A stretch of 38,050 nt of DNA, taken from assembly GCA_030019075.1 (NCBI GenBank), contig JASEHD010000015.1:1-38050 (forward strand), read 5' to 3'. Of this stretch, positions 20,375 to 32,648 are shown piece after piece. The position numbers were made by a program, and so were the translations under genes. Each line of letters starts with the position of its first letter. Within the stretch, counting starts at the first letter, position 1. Under the pieces are notes generated by a model. It worked only from the letters and a program-made list of their open reading frames with translations, did not search any database and was not told the DNA's origin. This DNA is from Bacteroidota bacterium. Its GTDB lineage: Bacteria > Bacteroidota > Ignavibacteria > UBA10030 > SZUA-254.

Positions 20375-23300
20375 TTATCGCAACAATATCATCTTCCTCA
20401 CTTGGATGAAAAACTTGCTTGGATCCGATATACTTATTGCTTCAATTCTATAGAAATACATCCCACTCGGTAATCCACCGTTGGCAGATGCATCTCCGCC
20501 TAAGGCGGATCCGCCTCTGGCGGAAAATTCAGCAATCTTAGACCCCGCTTCTTGTATCTTATCAACCAAAGTAATGACTTCCCGCCCAAGCAGGTCAAAG
20601 ATTATTAAAGTAACCTTCGACTCTTCAGGGATTGAATCCCGAATCACTGTAATGGGATTGAATGGATTGGGATAGTTCTGTTGAACAGAATACACATGAG
20701 GAATATCGACTAAAAGTACACCAACAGGTACTTTTTGTTTAAAGGTCACGTGTATTGTATGATCTGTTGTAACGTTTCTGAAGACATATATAGAATCACT
20801 ACCAACAAAAATCCCATCGGCCAGAACACTATCAACCTCATATTCATAAACTGGATACATTCTGAATGTAACACTATCTCCATAATTTACATTTACGGTA
20901 TCGGATGGCGAGATGAATCCATTCTCACCTGCGGTCGCTACTATCTTGTAAATATTAACAGCAAAGTGTGCTGTGATGTTCTTATTGCCATTCATAACGA
21001 TGCTGATTGGATTTACCGTCCCACTCGTATCACCGCTCCAACTAACAAAATGATAACCTACTGCGGGGGTTGCTGTTAGTTGAACAGATGTTCCGTGGGT
21101 ATATGTCGGCTGATTTGGAATTTTCGTTACCATTCCGTTTGTGGCATTCACTGTTAAGGTATAAGTGTTAATCGCAAAGTTTGCAGTGATGTTTTTATTA
21201 CTATTCATCACGATACTGATTGGATTTGTTGTCCCACTCGTATCACCGCTCCAACTAACAAAATGATAACCTAATGCTGGGGTTGCTGTTAGTTGAACAG
21301 ATGTTCCGTGGGTATATGTCGGCTGATTTGGAATTTTCGTTACCATTCCATTTGTGGCATTCACTGTTAAGGTATAAGTGTTAATCGCAAAGTTTGCAGT
21401 GATGTTTTTATTACTATTCATCACGATACTGATTGGATTTGTTGTCCCACTCGTATCACCGCTCCAATTTACAAATTGATAACCAACTATCGGTACTGCT
21501 GTCAATTGAACAGATTCATTCTTATCGTACTGTGGTTTATCAGGATTTTTTAATACTAAACCGTTTATGGCATTAACTGTGAGAGTGAAAGGCCCATCTA
21601 ACGAATCTACTATTCGTATTTTGGTTGGGATTGTGATTATCCTTTTATTCGGATCATTACTGTGAATTAGAATATTCGCACTATAATTGCCTGGACTGAA
21701 TTCTTTTGGATTAAATAGTACATTAACATTCAATTCCGAATCAGGAAGTACAACCCCTGATAATGGAGCAACCGAAATCCAACCGGGTGGGATGCTAAAT
21801 TCAATAGCAAAATTATTTTTTATGCTTGTCGGACTAATAAATAGATCTCCTATCCCTGCATTTCCCATCCCCATCGTCTGATCAGGGCTCTCAATGCCAA
21901 TCGCTTCCGGCTGATCTTGTGTGTTTAAATATTGAAATATTATATTATTTGTACTTTCATAAAAAATCACTTCAAACGTCTTTTCATCTGAACCGCCGTA
22001 ATTGGGAATAGTGTTATATTCAACAATAAAAAATCTAAAAGGTGCCGTACCATAAGTCTGGTACCGAATATATTTCGCATCTGGAGCAAATAAATCTTTT
22101 CCAAACGGTACAATGGCACCAGCATATTCATCATTTGCTGGAACGTCGGATGGATACCACTCACCGAAACCATTAAAGCTCAACCATCCATTCGACATAA
22201 TATTTACCGAAGTGTATTCATATCCATAATATTTGAATGTAAATCCAAGTGGTATACCCGAGCTATAACCATCATCTTTTAAATTAACCGATGTTCCCAA
22301 GCTTACATCAACCCAATTAAATTTAAGTCCATCAGGACCATCACTATCCCTCCATCTATATCCAAATGGATCTGGCCCTCCAAAATTTTGAATCTTCTCT
22401 GGATAAACACGGACATTCACTTCATTTATTTTGATATTTTTTAAAATCGGATGTTTTTTAGTTACACCACCCGATAATTTTGCCGGTAAGGGATACGACA
22501 AAAAAGTTTTTGAAACACCTGTATCCTGGATACTGATGTTATAAATTAATTCGCTTTCACCAGAATTAGTGATTGTGAATATTCGGTTTGTAGAATCACC
22601 TTTGAGTAACACGATACTCAAAGATTCCGGGACAACACCACCGACCGGAGGAAGTATTCCTTCACCTCGCAACGAGATAGTACTTTCCCCTTCATCCGGA
22701 TCATTACTTGATATCGTTAACCTTCCGTTTCTTTCTCCTGCTGAGGTGGGAGTAAATGTTAAATATAAATTTTGTTTTTCTCCGGGCTCCAAACTGAAAT
22801 TGCTAATGTCTACACTGTAATCAGAATTATCGGAAACAATCCCACTTATAGTTAATACATCTGTACCAAAATTCGAGACAATAAATTTCTCTCTGCGAGA
22901 GGTTCCAACAAATATATTTTGGAAATCAAACGATGTATCGGATAGAAAGATATCGGGTACTCCTGTGACGGTAAGATGTACTGGAATCGCTACTGTATCT
23001 TCATCTGGATCATTGCTAATTATTAATAAATTGGCATGGTAATAACCGTCATATAATCCCCCAGCATTAAATGTTACATCGATGTAAATAGACGATAGCG
23101 CGGGTACGATTCCATTCAATGGATTTGCCGATAACCAACCTGATCTGCCTGCCGCATACAGTAAGCTGTTATGAACGATCAGAGGAACATCACCTGTGAA
23201 CTGATAATATTCCCCTACATAACTATTCACTGCTACAACGTTTCCTTTAACAGCAACAAAATTTTCCCCATCGCTCCAGCGGGCAATTAATCGTGATCCT

Positions 23301-24067
23301 GTAGTTAGCATAGTATAATCTCGGTATTCATCACTTGCATTTGTAACGTTCTCCATAATTGGGTGAGTAGGATTCAGGATTTGTAGATTTGCCGAGCTAT
23401 AATGGTTCAAACTTGATGCCGATACTAATGGTGCATATGCAGGATCCATTATTCTCCCACACAAACTAAGTCCACAGCTATCATACCATGAGAATGTCCC
23501 TAAAACAACTCCCCCACCTTGGTCAACATAATCGGCTAACACATCCCCGAATCCTATTGGATCCAGGTGTTGATCGAATGTCCTTGTCATCACAACATCG
23601 TATCCTTGCAAAACTTCAATCGTAGGTGTGCTATCGCGTGTGCTAAAGATACTTATCGAAGCAATATCCGGATATGATAATAATTGACTCGTTATATAAC
23701 TTGCTCCATCATCAGCTATTGCTAATAAGACATTCAATCCAGTGGAACTGTACCGTTGTGAAATCAGGGATGTTTCAACCTTTAACGTTCGAGCGTTTGT
23801 CGAAATACCCGCGATATCGATATTAAATGTTAAATCACTCGATCCCGTGTTGTTTATTGTCAATGTTTGTGTGACCATCTCTCCAGTTATCAATTCTGCG
23901 CTCAATGATTCCGGGCTGACTGAAATATTTGGTTCTGCCATTGTTTTTACATTGTCTGCATTTATATTCTGATTTAACTTGTCATCTGTTTGGGCTGAGG
24001 CGGGTACACTAAATGAAAGAAATACTAAAATAATCGCATATACGAAAATCCGGGACTGATTAAGCAT
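20375..24067 (-). CDS. Large secreted multidomain protein with InlB-like repeats and type IX-like sorting domain
   Basis: The N-terminal signal peptide ends ...SFSVPASAQ. Next come choice-of-anchor-type beta domains (ISVSPESLSAELITGEM.. and a SPD-2/Hydin-like region FQNIFVGTSRREKFIVSNFG). Between them lies a ThuA/amidotransferase-like region (VLLAIADDGASYITSQLLSY, then YVDQGGGVVLGTFSWYD). Residues ~823-1035 are three 71-residue divergent InlB B-type repeats (GYHFVSWSGDTSGTTNPISI), followed by a fourth, more divergent repeat. The C-terminus is a sorting domain: QQNYPNPFNPITVIRDSIP, LIIFDLLGREVITLVDK and GMYFYRIEA. It is probably exported and surface-anchored or released; the ligand is unknown. 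A palindromic element adds RGGSALGGD to the sorting domain. Confidence 0.88.
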   Translation of the reverse strand: MLNQSRIFVYAIILVFLSFSVPASAQTDDKLNQNINADNVKTMAEPNISVSPESLSAELITGEMVTQTLTINNTGSSDLTFNIDIAGISTNARTLKVETSLISQRYSSTGLNVLLAIADDGASYITSQLLSYPDIASISIFSTRDSTPTIEVLQGYDVVMTRTFDQHLDPIGFGDVLADYVDQGGGVVLGTFSWYDSCGLSLCGRIMDPAYAPLVSASSLNHYSSANLQILNPTHPIMENVTNASDEYRDYTMLTTGSRLIARWSDGENFVAVKGNVVAVNSYVGEYYQFTGDVPLIVHNSLLYAAGRSGWLSANPLNGIVPALSSIYIDVTFNAGGLYDGYYHANLLIISNDPDEDTVAIPVHLTVTGVPDIFLSDTSFDFQNIFVGTSRREKFIVSNFGTDVLTISGIVSDNSDYSVDISNFSLEPGEKQNLYLTFTPTSAGERNGRLTISSNDPDEGESTISLRGEGILPPVGGVVPESLSIVLLKGDSTNRIFTITNSGESELIYNISIQDTGVSKTFLSYPLPAKLSGGVTKKHPILKNIKINEVNVRVYPEKIQNFGGPDPFGYRWRDSDGPDGLKFNWVDVSLGTSVNLKDDGYSSGIPLGFTFKYYGYEYTSVNIMSNGWLSFNGFGEWYPSDVPANDEYAGAIVPFGKDLFAPDAKYIRYQTYGTAPFRFFIVEYNTIPNYGGSDEKTFEVIFYESTNNIIFQYLNTQDQPEAIGIESPDQTMGMGNAGIGDLFISPTSIKNNFAIEFSIPPGWISVAPLSGVVLPDSELNVNVLFNPKEFSPGNYSANILIHSNDPNKRIITIPTKIRIVDSLDGPFTLTVNAINGLVLKNPDKPQYDKNESVQLTAVPIVGYQFVNWSGDTSGTTNPISIVMNSNKNITANFAINTYTLTVNATNGMVTKIPNQPTYTHGTSVQLTATPALGYHFVSWSGDTSGTTNPISIVMNSNKNITANFAINTYTLTVNATNGMVTKIPNQPTYTHGTSVQLTATPAVGYHFVSWSGDTSGTVNPISIVMNGNKNITAHFAVNIYKIVATAGENGFISPSDTVNVNYGDSVTFRMYPVYEYEVDSVLADGIFVGSDSIYVFRNVTTDHTIHVTFKQKVPVGVLLVDIPHVYSVQQNYPNPFNPITVIRDSIPEESKVTLIIFDLLGREVITLVDKIQEAGSKIAEFSARGGSALGGDASANGGLPSGMYFYRIEAISISDPSKFFIQVRKMILLR
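20495..20524. repeat. Coding palindromic element, copy A
   Basis: Thirty bases of the form TCCGCC-NN-AGGCGGATCCGCCT-NN-GGCGGA, a perfect palindrome apart from the two 2-bp variable positions. Read on the minus strand in the sorting domain, it encodes the SARGGSALGG segment. It matches 29625-29654 except at the variable positions, and the sequences on both sides are also similar. Confidence 0.9.
20961..21600. repeat. Three tandem 213-bp coding repeats
   Basis: Equivalent points occur at 20961, 21174 and 21387, a period of 213 bases (71 residues). Long stretches of the second and third units are identical to neighbouring units at the DNA level, pointing to recent duplication or gene conversion; the third (minus-strand first) unit is more diverged in its first half. 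Confidence 0.9.
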
Positions 24068-29391: not shown

Positions 29392-29534
29392 AAAAACTCC
29401 GATTAATTGTTAATAGTAAAAGTAATTTAAGAACATATTATCTTACGTTTTCAAAAGGAAAAGTTTCTTTCCGAAAGTGCGACTCACGTCCAACCTTGTA
29501 TCACAGATGAACGTGAGTCGCACATTCAAACATC

Positions 29535-32500
29535 TTATTTCAACAAAACAAATTTTTTAACTGCAATATAGTCACCAGCAGCTAATCTGTAGAAGTACAA
29601 ACCACTTGAAAGCTTCGAACCATTTCCGCCAGAGGCGGATCCGCCTTCGGCGGAAAATTCAACCGACTTGAATCCTGCATCCTGAATCCCATCTATAAGT
29701 GTTGCCACTTCCTGCCCAAGCACGTTGTACACTTTCAGCGTTACAAATGACTCCTTTGGTAATTCATAACGGATGGTTGTACTCGGATTGAACGGATTCG
29801 GATAGTTTTGTTCAAGCGCAAATTCTCTTGGCAACTCAGGTTGTTCAGCGACAAAATCTTCCGGTGGTGAAAATGGCGGAAATTCAGAATTCTCTTCAAT
29901 CTTTATACGGTTAATATTCTCTACATAAGAAGGAACGGAGAGTATCAATTTACCCGGCTGATTCACTTTTACCCAATATCCTTTTCCGGGCTTCAGCGTA
30001 TCTACCGGGATATAACTACTTTGGTACCCAAAAAATTGTGATGTTACAATTGATGATGGTACACACATAATACTGGATGCAGCAACAGGGACACTGATTG
30101 TCCCTATCATATTCCATCCTTCAATCACATCAACACTTTCTACAATAAGTGGTCTGCCAGTTAATGGTATCATTTGATTACTGCTAAATTTTAACCAATA
30201 CCCATTACATTTTTTTATCGTATCATTTGATTTATAAACATCCTCATAATAATAAGCGGGAGAGATCGCCGTCGGGAACAATATTAGTTTTCTTTTCTCT
30301 TCGATATCCAGCGGTAAAGAAATAAGATTCCACCCAGATCCAGCAGTAAATGTCAGTGTTGGTGTTTGATAATGTAAAATCTGTAACGAGTTTATTGCTG
30401 GATCAACAATGACCGCCGTACTTTCGGCACGCATATTTATGAAGATACTGTCACCATTAGTTAATTCATCGCGGAGGAAAAATTCACCTTCGGTTAGCGA
30501 ATCGGGCTGCCAGTGTAAAGTAAACGGATAACCAGATGGACCGGGCTGAATTTCGACAGTAAAGACATGTGATGATTCGGTCAAACTCATTACGTTCCGA
30601 AAATCCATTGCAGTTCCATTTGTTCCGGGAATTTTCCATCGCACATCAAATATCCCGGTCCCGGGTTTGGCTGGCAGCTCAGTTTCACCGATAATAATGT
30701 CAATATCATCTGTCGCACCGGCAAACTCCCCATACCACAACGTGTCATTCAAACCACCATTATCGTTCAGTGCTAACATATTTGGCTTCCAGTTGCTTTG
30801 GCTGACACCAACAACTGTATCCGACGGCAAACTCTCATTTCCAGTCGAATCAACTGCAGACACATAGTAATAATATATACCTGGACTTAAAAGAACGTCC
30901 ATCAATGTTGTATCTCGTACAGGTTGGATATTGATACGGCTAAAATCAGCGGCAGCGTAATCAGCGCGATAGATGTTATAACCTCTTAAATCCATCTCAT
31001 AATTTTTCTGCCAATTGACTCGAATACCATTGATGACCTCATGTGTTGTTAGACCTACAGGTGATAGAGGAACACTTCTCGGTACACCAGTTCCCTCAAC
31101 AATGATTCCTTCGTTGCCAACCAAATCGACAACCGAAACTCCGACATAATGTGTTACACCTTCTTCGAGACCATTTAAAATTATCGAACGTTTGGTTGTT
31201 GAATGAAAAGCATCATATACTCCAGGCGATTTACCAACAGAGATTTTATATATTTGAAAATCAGGAACAGCCGCACTATCCCATTGAACGAATAGTGAAT
31301 TACCTTTTCCTCTATCAAACACCTGCACACCTGTAACGCTCGGTGGAAGCTGATCGAGTGTGAGCAGCATTGCAAGTCCGGATTTGATAATATCTCGAGC
31401 ATATGGTATCTCTAAGTATTGTATCAAATCATTGGGTGAGTGATAGTAAGGGCTAAAATCGTGCTCGATGCAAAATACTGTTTTATATGCTTTTTGATAG
31501 AACGACCAACTGTCGCTGCCGCTGCGATAACTTGTCGTCAAGACGGGATTTAATGTTGTATATGTTCGCATCATAGCGGCATGCAAGTTGGAATACGCTT
31601 CACTGCCACTATACCATACTACATACACATCCCGATCTGGTTGTGATGTATTTCTGTTACCAATCATATCATAGTTCATCATCACCTTGATATCTCTCCA
31701 CTGCTGACGAGCTTTTACAGCATAATCGTAACTTCCTTTTAATCCTACTTCTTCAGCCGCAAATCCAATAAAGCGCAACGTAAGTCTCGGCTGATAATTT
31801 ATAAGTTTTAACACCCGTGCCATCTCGATTGCAGCGGTCGTTCCAGAAGCATTGTCATCAGCACCGGGCGCTTGAGAGAGATTGGAGGAATATGAATCAA
31901 AATGTCCACCAACAATTATCTCTGCTGAGGGATTGACTGTCCCAGGTATCGTTGCAATTACATTTTTTTGCCATGTACTGGCATATAAGAAACTATCATA
32001 TTGAACATCAGCAATACCAAGGTCAGTGAATTGGTCGCCAACCCACTTAAAAACATTTTCACGATTGGAATTCAAACAATAGCGCGTTCCAAAATTTTGC
32101 ATCCCCTGAATATAATTTGTTATCGTCGTATTGCTTACCAAACTAATGATACTATCTATCGTTGAATCAACCATCACACTAAATGTTGAAGGCAGATAAG
32201 TCTGAGAAATATCTATCGGTATTTCTTTTCGATCAATCTCAAAACCAGATATTCCCTGTTTCCGAAGTTCATGAAACACACCTGCCGAACCCTTGGTAAC
32301 AACAACATCATCGTCTTTAAATAATATGGGTAATGAATATTTAGAGAGACTTTGATTTTGTTTCTTGAGAAACGTTTCCGATATAACAGCATACGAATCC
32401 GTCCATGGCTTATCATCAATAACCTGCACATTAATGCCTCGCCCTTTTAATCTTTTTAAACCGTCACGAGACGTACCAGCTAAAAATGATTCTGAAAAAC

Positions 32501-32648
32501 GATGATAGATCCGAAGTTGATCAGGCACGATTTCTTTGGCTTGATGAACTTGGCTAACTAGAATTGTGATCAGGACTTCTTGCTGCGAAAATGATTGAGC
32601 AAAAATGAGAGTTGGAACAAACAAGAGAATGACCAGAAGAATCCGCAT
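29535..32648 (-). CDS. Secreted M28 family metallopeptidase with fibronectin-like domains and type IX-like sorting domain
   Basis: A signal peptide (ILLVILLFVPTLIFAQ) is followed by a propeptide-like region and an M28 di-zinc aminopeptidase domain (~200-430). The ligands are visible: His249 (GGHFDSY), bridging Asp264 (GADDNASG), Glu299/Glu300 (FAAEEVGLKGS), Asp327 (NYDMIG) and His403 (YYHSPND). Two fibronectin type III-like regions follow (VTGVQVFDRG.., VGLTTHEVINGIRVNWQKNY), then a beta-rich region. The C-terminal sorting domain has QNYPNPFNPSTTIRYELP, LKVYNVLGQEVATLID and GLYFYRLAAGD. Probably exported to degrade peptides outside the cell. Contains coding palindromic element copy B. Confidence 0.93.
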   Translation of the reverse strand: MRILLVILLFVPTLIFAQSFSQQEVLITILVSQVHQAKEIVPDQLRIYHRFSESFLAGTSRDGLKRLKGRGINVQVIDDKPWTDSYAVISETFLKKQNQSLSKYSLPILFKDDDVVVTKGSAGVFHELRKQGISGFEIDRKEIPIDISQTYLPSTFSVMVDSTIDSIISLVSNTTITNYIQGMQNFGTRYCLNSNRENVFKWVGDQFTDLGIADVQYDSFLYASTWQKNVIATIPGTVNPSAEIIVGGHFDSYSSNLSQAPGADDNASGTTAAIEMARVLKLINYQPRLTLRFIGFAAEEVGLKGSYDYAVKARQQWRDIKVMMNYDMIGNRNTSQPDRDVYVVWYSGSEAYSNLHAAMMRTYTTLNPVLTTSYRSGSDSWSFYQKAYKTVFCIEHDFSPYYHSPNDLIQYLEIPYARDIIKSGLAMLLTLDQLPPSVTGVQVFDRGKGNSLFVQWDSAAVPDFQIYKISVGKSPGVYDAFHSTTKRSIILNGLEEGVTHYVGVSVVDLVGNEGIIVEGTGVPRSVPLSPVGLTTHEVINGIRVNWQKNYEMDLRGYNIYRADYAAADFSRINIQPVRDTTLMDVLLSPGIYYYYVSAVDSTGNESLPSDTVVGVSQSNWKPNMLALNDNGGLNDTLWYGEFAGATDDIDIIIGETELPAKPGTGIFDVRWKIPGTNGTAMDFRNVMSLTESSHVFTVEIQPGPSGYPFTLHWQPDSLTEGEFFLRDELTNGDSIFINMRAESTAVIVDPAINSLQILHYQTPTLTFTAGSGWNLISLPLDIEEKRKLILFPTAISPAYYYEDVYKSNDTIKKCNGYWLKFSSNQMIPLTGRPLIVESVDVIEGWNMIGTISVPVAASSIMCVPSSIVTSQFFGYQSSYIPVDTLKPGKGYWVKVNQPGKLILSVPSYVENINRIKIEENSEFPPFSPPEDFVAEQPELPREFALEQNYPNPFNPSTTIRYELPKESFVTLKVYNVLGQEVATLIDGIQDAGFKSVEFSAEGGSASGGNGSKLSSGLYFYRLAAGDYIAVKKFVLLK
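29625..29654. repeat. Coding palindromic element, copy B
   Basis: Same 30-bp palindrome as 20495-20524 apart from the two 2-bp variable positions, and followed by the same GGCGGAAAATTC context. In the coding frame it gives SAEGGSASGG, sitting between the EFS strand and the LSSGLYFYRL strand of the sorting domain, the same place as copy A. Confidence 0.9.

Follow-up and report, generated by a model that had tools for sequence, protein, structure and literature searches.

Two 30-bp palindromes that interrupt the coding regions of unrelated secreted proteins in a Bacteroidota bacterium are probably copies of a non-autonomous mobile element composed of two abutting hairpins, a reading to which we assign a probability of about 0.8. 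No transposition event has been caught and no mobilising gene has been identified. What can be observed directly is a dispersed family of such elements, the clean gain, in some places, of exactly 30 bp with no duplicated target, a preference for the target TTY^RAA, a bias in reading frame, and conservation of the hairpins. Both palindromes reside in a 38,050-nucleotide stretch of DNA, which is referred to in its entirety as the window.

Structure of the element and its two copies in the window

Each 30-mer consists of two abutting 15-bp palindromes of the form TCCGCC-NNN-GGCGGA and is near-palindromic across its full 30 bp. The earlier note had placed these palindromes in frame within the C-terminal sorting domains of two secreted proteins, and this description is accurate (Table 1). 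Both copies match the pattern without mismatch, no match occurs in 100 dinucleotide-preserving shuffles, and in both proteins the added Gly/Ser/Ala segment directly follows the residues EF of the type IX (Por) sorting domain. The proposal that the 30-bp palindrome is itself the unit needs revision: the palindrome is present exactly, but the basic unit is a 15-bp hairpin that is often doubled. In sorting domains, EV.TLV and SGVYFYR lie 25 residues apart when the element is absent and 35 when one double is present, and most of the aligned domains lack it. The corresponding spacing in the M28 peptidase (EV.TLI to SGLYFYR) is 35 residues, or 25 plus 10, and that in the 1230-residue protein (EV.TLV to SGMYFYR) is 38 residues rather than the usual 25. 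When 22 double units were used to build a covariance model, it recovered these two sites as the only strong ones in the window. A search of the window with Rfam models returned only one tRNA, leaving the element without a match to a known RNA family.

Two other repeats in the window are associated with the host genes. Three tandem 213-nt repeats at 20949-21587, the second and third 92% and 73% identical to the first, encode the InlB B-repeats of the 1230-residue protein. A 20-nt inverted repeat at 29473-29527 (90% complementary, 15-nt loop) lies just 3ˊ of the M28 gene and is probably a terminator.

Table 1. Positions of the double-hairpin elements, their host genes and the sorting domains within the window.
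Feature	Position	Strand	Description
Double-hairpin element	20495..20524	-	SARGGSALGG, residues 1182-1191 of the 1230-aa protein; covariance model score 50.5 bits
Units of the element in host gene 1	20495-20509 and 20510-20524	-	15 bp each
Double-hairpin element	29625..29654	-	SAEGGSASGG, residues 999-1008 of the M28 peptidase; covariance model score 52.9 bits
Units of the element in the M28 gene	29625-29639 and 29640-29654	-	15 bp each
Host gene 1	20375..24067	-	1230-aa secreted protein; choice-of-anchor D, ASH/HYDIN-type and InlB B-repeat (Flg_new_2) domains
Host gene 2	29535..32648	-	1037-aa M28 aminopeptidase-like secreted protein
T9SS type A sorting domain, 1230-aa protein	20378..20686	-	TIGR04183; spacing; alignment
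T9SS type A sorting domain, M28 peptidase	29538..29816	-	PF18962 and TIGR04183; spacing; alignment

What is preserved is the pair of hairpins and not any one fixed sequence. In 1.2 Mb scanned for any two abutting 6-3-6 hairpins, 22 gapless doubles were found, compared with a single match over all gaps in a Markov control. The consensus for the double is TNNGYC-RNA-GRCNNA followed by TNNGYC-TNY-GRCNNA, wherein each hairpin has a 6-bp stem and a 3-nt loop. Although TCCGCC is the commonest arm, it is replaced at other loci by TGCGCC, TCAGCC, TACGCC, TGTGCC, TTCGCC and others. When rows were chosen by their core letters only, both free base pairs were complementary in 31 of 34 variant units and one of the two was complementary in the other three; an earlier count of such pairs was biased because its rows had been preselected for perfect pairing. 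Covariation between the arms has a p value of approximately 1e-25 or less if loci are treated as independent. The hairpins are also predicted to be stable as RNA (z -4.1). A single long 30-bp hairpin was considered as the conserved structure and was rejected because its covariation does not exceed that of shuffles, whereas the two local hairpins do covary.

Dispersed copies and empty sites

The earlier note anticipated that a mobile palindrome would recur across the genome in diverse genes, and this expectation is borne out. The source genome (3.18 Mb in 226 contigs) carries 43 exact 15-bp units, where approximately 0.02 are expected from base composition and a reversed-pattern control gave none. 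Enzyme genes that bear a unit include those for an S13 carboxypeptidase, an M17 (leucyl) aminopeptidase, an SQS/PSY protein and a 3-methyladenine DNA glycosylase, and units are also present in genes for an ABC transporter, an MqnC-type radical SAM protein and DnaK. Other copies lie in T9SS sorting domains, at the ends of ORFs and in intergenic regions. The presence of units in core cytosolic enzymes rules out the notion that the element is confined to exported C-terminal domains.

At least one unit is found in 52 of 60 relatives. Among 395 genomes of the phylum, copy number ranges from 0 to 84 per genome and is patchy even inside genera, with copies concentrated in the order and class of the source genome. 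About 60 of the 97 units scored in genomes of its own order are single, with a mixture of intragenic and extragenic locations; doubles are common and also occur as exact 30-bp insertions. A sample of 40 contigs of the source genome excluded those bearing sites, and therefore has no bearing on density. In the DNA glycosylase gene (L018:3397), a second and different coding palindrome, TCGACGAGTCGAGTCGTCGA, lies approximately 20 bases downstream of the TCCGCC unit. Given this case, other families of coding palindromes may exist besides the TCCGCC type. Elsewhere, the double TCAGCCGAAGGCTGATCCGCCTCTGGCGGA occurs twice with identical flanks, approximately 300 bp apart (L035:624-653 and 927-956), within a larger tandem duplication.

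Comparison with orthologues and congeners reveals sites at which the element is absent. The M17, SQS/PSY and S13 proteins of the source genome have three to four extra residues exactly at the palindrome, and these are present in none of approximately 29 orthologues of each, as predicted for an insertion. Two congeners with approximately 89% DNA identity (G020 and G030) differ by exactly 30 bp inside the gene for the E2 component of a 2-oxoacid dehydrogenase (L230 versus L272), where SAGGGSAYGG lies between PVVI and NDAIAIR. A second exact 30-bp difference separates the same two genomes (L214 versus L271), and a UvrC gene likewise carries the element. No target duplication was found at either of the two congener sites, and thus the target duplication that would mark a MITE moved by a DDE transposase is missing there.

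Single units behave differently in two respects. Their net gain is often 9-12 bp rather than 15 bp, as if 3-6 bp had been replaced (L009, L031, L033, L209/L267, L243/L273), and their flanks prefer AA..TT, opposite to the TT..AA of the doubles. On this basis, single units may arise differently from doubles. At L214/L271, the 30-bp element sits at the centre of a pre-existing palindrome, TCCCGC^AAAGCGGGA, and at one intergenic spot congeners carry different, possibly nested hairpins (L219 versus L263). Insertion into the centres of existing palindromes was considered as a general rule, but the few cases (L192, L208, L214/L271) do not amount to an overall enrichment.

Doubles are not restricted to this phylum. 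An exact double-unit scan with one genome per species produced at least 118 stretches. Among the 80 matches listed, and judged by record title, 45 are from Patescibacteria, ten from Omnitrophota, seven from Kiritimatiellae and Lentisphaerae, two each from Auribacterota and Ignavibacteria, one each from Margulisiibacteriota, Firestonebacteria, Chloroflexota and Deltaproteobacteria, and ten from bacteria without a group name. Again among the matches listed, 86 of the 123 doubles in cross-phylum loci fall within an ORF that is 120 aa or longer; of these 86, 78 are read in the frame that encodes SAxGGSAxGG (p ~1e-28, with loci treated as independent), a bias that reflects selection, insertion preference or both. 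In CysS, where the segment is beside the KMSKS loop, and in TsaD and the ATP synthase beta subunit (AtpD), the segment aligns with a gap in solved structures. In three loci of the Kiritimatiellae genome JAQUMN01 (L307, L328, L371) and in L360, several doubles share identical flanks within one genome, and the element rides in a larger repeat. Carriage by viruses, plasmids or phages was rejected, since the double unit was found in only one of 2.9 million viral contigs and in none of the plasmids, phages and E. coli records searched.

Target preference and recurrence in sorting domains

The pooled flanks of 164 doubles give the consensus TTY^RAA, with A at position +2 in 267 of 328 flanks. Among the matches listed, the 78 in-frame cross-phylum doubles are preceded by Phe in 34 cases and followed by Lys in 41, with Asn, Asp or Glu ranking next at the latter position. 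Insertions at EF^ occur in both window genes and in G047, G009, L396 and L322, those at NPF^NP in L412 and L367, and one follows VNF in L277. The L322 locus, from a related carrier in Ignavibacteria, bears the insert of the window genes at the corresponding position of its sorting domain. The 30-mer of the M28 gene recurs identically at this site in a genome of another family (G047; L203) with diverged flanks. The TTY^RAA preference accounts for the shared location in two secreted proteins: the coding sequence for EF(N/D)A and NPFNP supplies this target in sorting domains.

Other explanations for this arrangement fare less well. Gene conversion or domain shuffling, which the earlier note offered as its alternative, would have moved one sorting domain together with its segment into the other gene, and it is true that nearly the same letters occupy the same place in two sorting domains 9 kb apart. 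However, once the element is set aside, identity between the two domains is 60%, which is no higher than that with element-free domains, and the nearest relative of the M28 domain (75%) is itself element-free. The element also occupies other sites in other sorting domains (NPF^NP, VNF^) and lies in many unrelated genes. We therefore consider such a transfer highly improbable, and independent insertion at a preferred target fits better. It is scarcely tenable that sorting domains have long conserved the segment for a role of its own in secretion. Its recurrence at EF^(N/D) in several species would agree with this idea, which is nevertheless already contradicted by the aligned domains, most of which lack the element and retain the 25-residue spacing, and by copies in cytosolic enzymes and intergenic regions. 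Improbable too is that the palindromes are functional sites, such as DNA uptake signals, terminators, or nucleoid or regulatory sites, that are kept by selection and are not mobile DNA. Some copies do lie at gene ends or between genes, and the stable RNA hairpins with their preserved base pairs could be read in this way. Yet there is only about one copy per 75 kb in the source genome, close relatives lack them, most cross-phylum doubles among the matches listed lie within the coding frames of unrelated genes, and congeners differ by the presence or absence of exactly 30 bp.

Possible mobilisation, related elements and implications

If the palindromes are mobile, the element might be copied and inserted by a hairpin-recognising enzyme that works on single-stranded DNA, although this step is inferred. 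The common insertion comprises ten codons, and its reading as SAxGGSAxGG is inferred from the frame. This segment is small and flexible, and is presumably tolerated by proteins, which might explain why intragenic copies persist. In the window, EF(N/D)A, a sorting-domain motif encoded as GAR TTY RAY GCN, would have presented an identical target in two unrelated proteins.

By analogy with REPs, the strongest candidate for this enzyme is a Y1 (HUH) transposase, but the assignment is doubtful. A related possibility, which we also regard as unlikely though by no means dismissed, is that the palindromes form a REP/REPIN family that has escaped recognition and is moved in trans by a RAYT-type or IS200/IS605-type Y1 tyrosine transposase. 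A REPIN is likewise composed of two adjacent inverted palindromic units. REP stems also exhibit compensatory changes, and REPs are found inside some genes (PMC3116915, PMC3733652). The source genome has seven Y1_Tnp genes, and in a set of 60 related genomes those with more Y1 genes tend to have more double-hairpin matches (Spearman 0.49, without correction for kinship), with 13 of the 15 genomes that lack Y1 having no match. The correspondence is imperfect, however, as G007 has 28 matches without Y1 whereas G053 and G059 have 9-12 Y1 genes and no matches. Furthermore, the GTAG/CGTC tag is absent from either end in the flank tables, and no TCCGCC-type hairpin was found near the five Y1 loci examined in the source genome, where the hairpins differ. 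Those flanking the Y1_Tnp genes at L040-L043 (CCCCGAC..GTCGGGG, CCACGAC..GTCGTGG, CCCCACG) look like separate REP/TIR-type families. In comparison with IS200/IS605 elements, clean empty sites exhibit no target duplication, and the target is a preference for TTY^RAA and not a fixed sequence.

Like REPs and REPINs (PMC3116915, PMC3733652), the double hairpin consists of short hairpins, often arranged as inverted doublets, varies patchily in copy number, shows compensatory changes in its stems, and has occasional copies inside genes. It differs in lacking the terminal GTAG/CGTC tetranucleotide, in having 3-nt loops and units that abut without a spacer, and in that no RAYT flanked by the element was seen at the five Y1_Tnp loci of the source genome. 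Moreover, its cross-phylum doubles among the matches listed are mostly intragenic with a strong frame bias, in contrast to the extragenic habit of REPs.

A resemblance to the RPEs of Rickettsia had also been suggested. RPEs and Wolbachia palindromes are described as both intergenic and fused in frame into conserved protein genes, where they are tolerated as added peptide (PMC2229807, citing Ogata et al. 2000, 2002, 2005; Abergel et al. 2006). RPEs, described from Rickettsia, are 105-146 bp long, and those of R. conorii end in CGTC (PMC3733652). The present element is also a palindromic repeat in frame within conserved protein genes, and the suggestion holds insofar as there are many copies and empty orthologues. 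It is not a member of the RPE family, however, being only 15 or 30 bp long, untagged as judged by flank composition, built of two side-by-side hairpins of other sequence, and carried in many phyla. The double-hairpin elements (DHEs) of fungal organelles, the repetitive hairpin elements (RHEs) of sponges and the palindromes of Volvox are likewise very short, scattered, GC-rich hairpins that are thought to be selfish, although these are organellar whereas the present element is bacterial (PMC2800124, PMC2670323).

A literature search found no paper describing the element, with subscription literature largely outside its reach, and the papers that contain the core 12-mer do not concern it as far as their titles and abstracts indicate. 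We tentatively entertain, at somewhat less than even odds, the view that the palindromes represent an undescribed class of mobile DNA: a minimal 30-bp double hairpin of which structure, not sequence, is what spreads across bacterial phyla rich in uncultivated lineages, with a sequence shaped to encode the harmless linker SAxGGSAxGG.

To our knowledge, mobile palindromes inside protein genes have so far been regarded as peculiar to Rickettsia and Wolbachia. The present element, although far smaller, does likewise in free-living and candidate-phylum bacteria, including in the genes for CysS, TsaD, AtpD, UvrC and an E2 acyltransferase. Insertions of five or ten residues in essential enzymes have here a natural source, and the element offers a straightforward account of the odd SAxGG inserts seen in particular lineages in alignments. 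The TTY^RAA rule predicts places of insertion in genomes, and a search for the enzyme that mobilises such small hairpins can use the element as a defined substrate. Should it constitute a minimal class of its own, few known mobile elements would be smaller, and its movement would call for either a hairpin-copying enzyme as yet unknown or an activity not previously seen in Y1 transposases.
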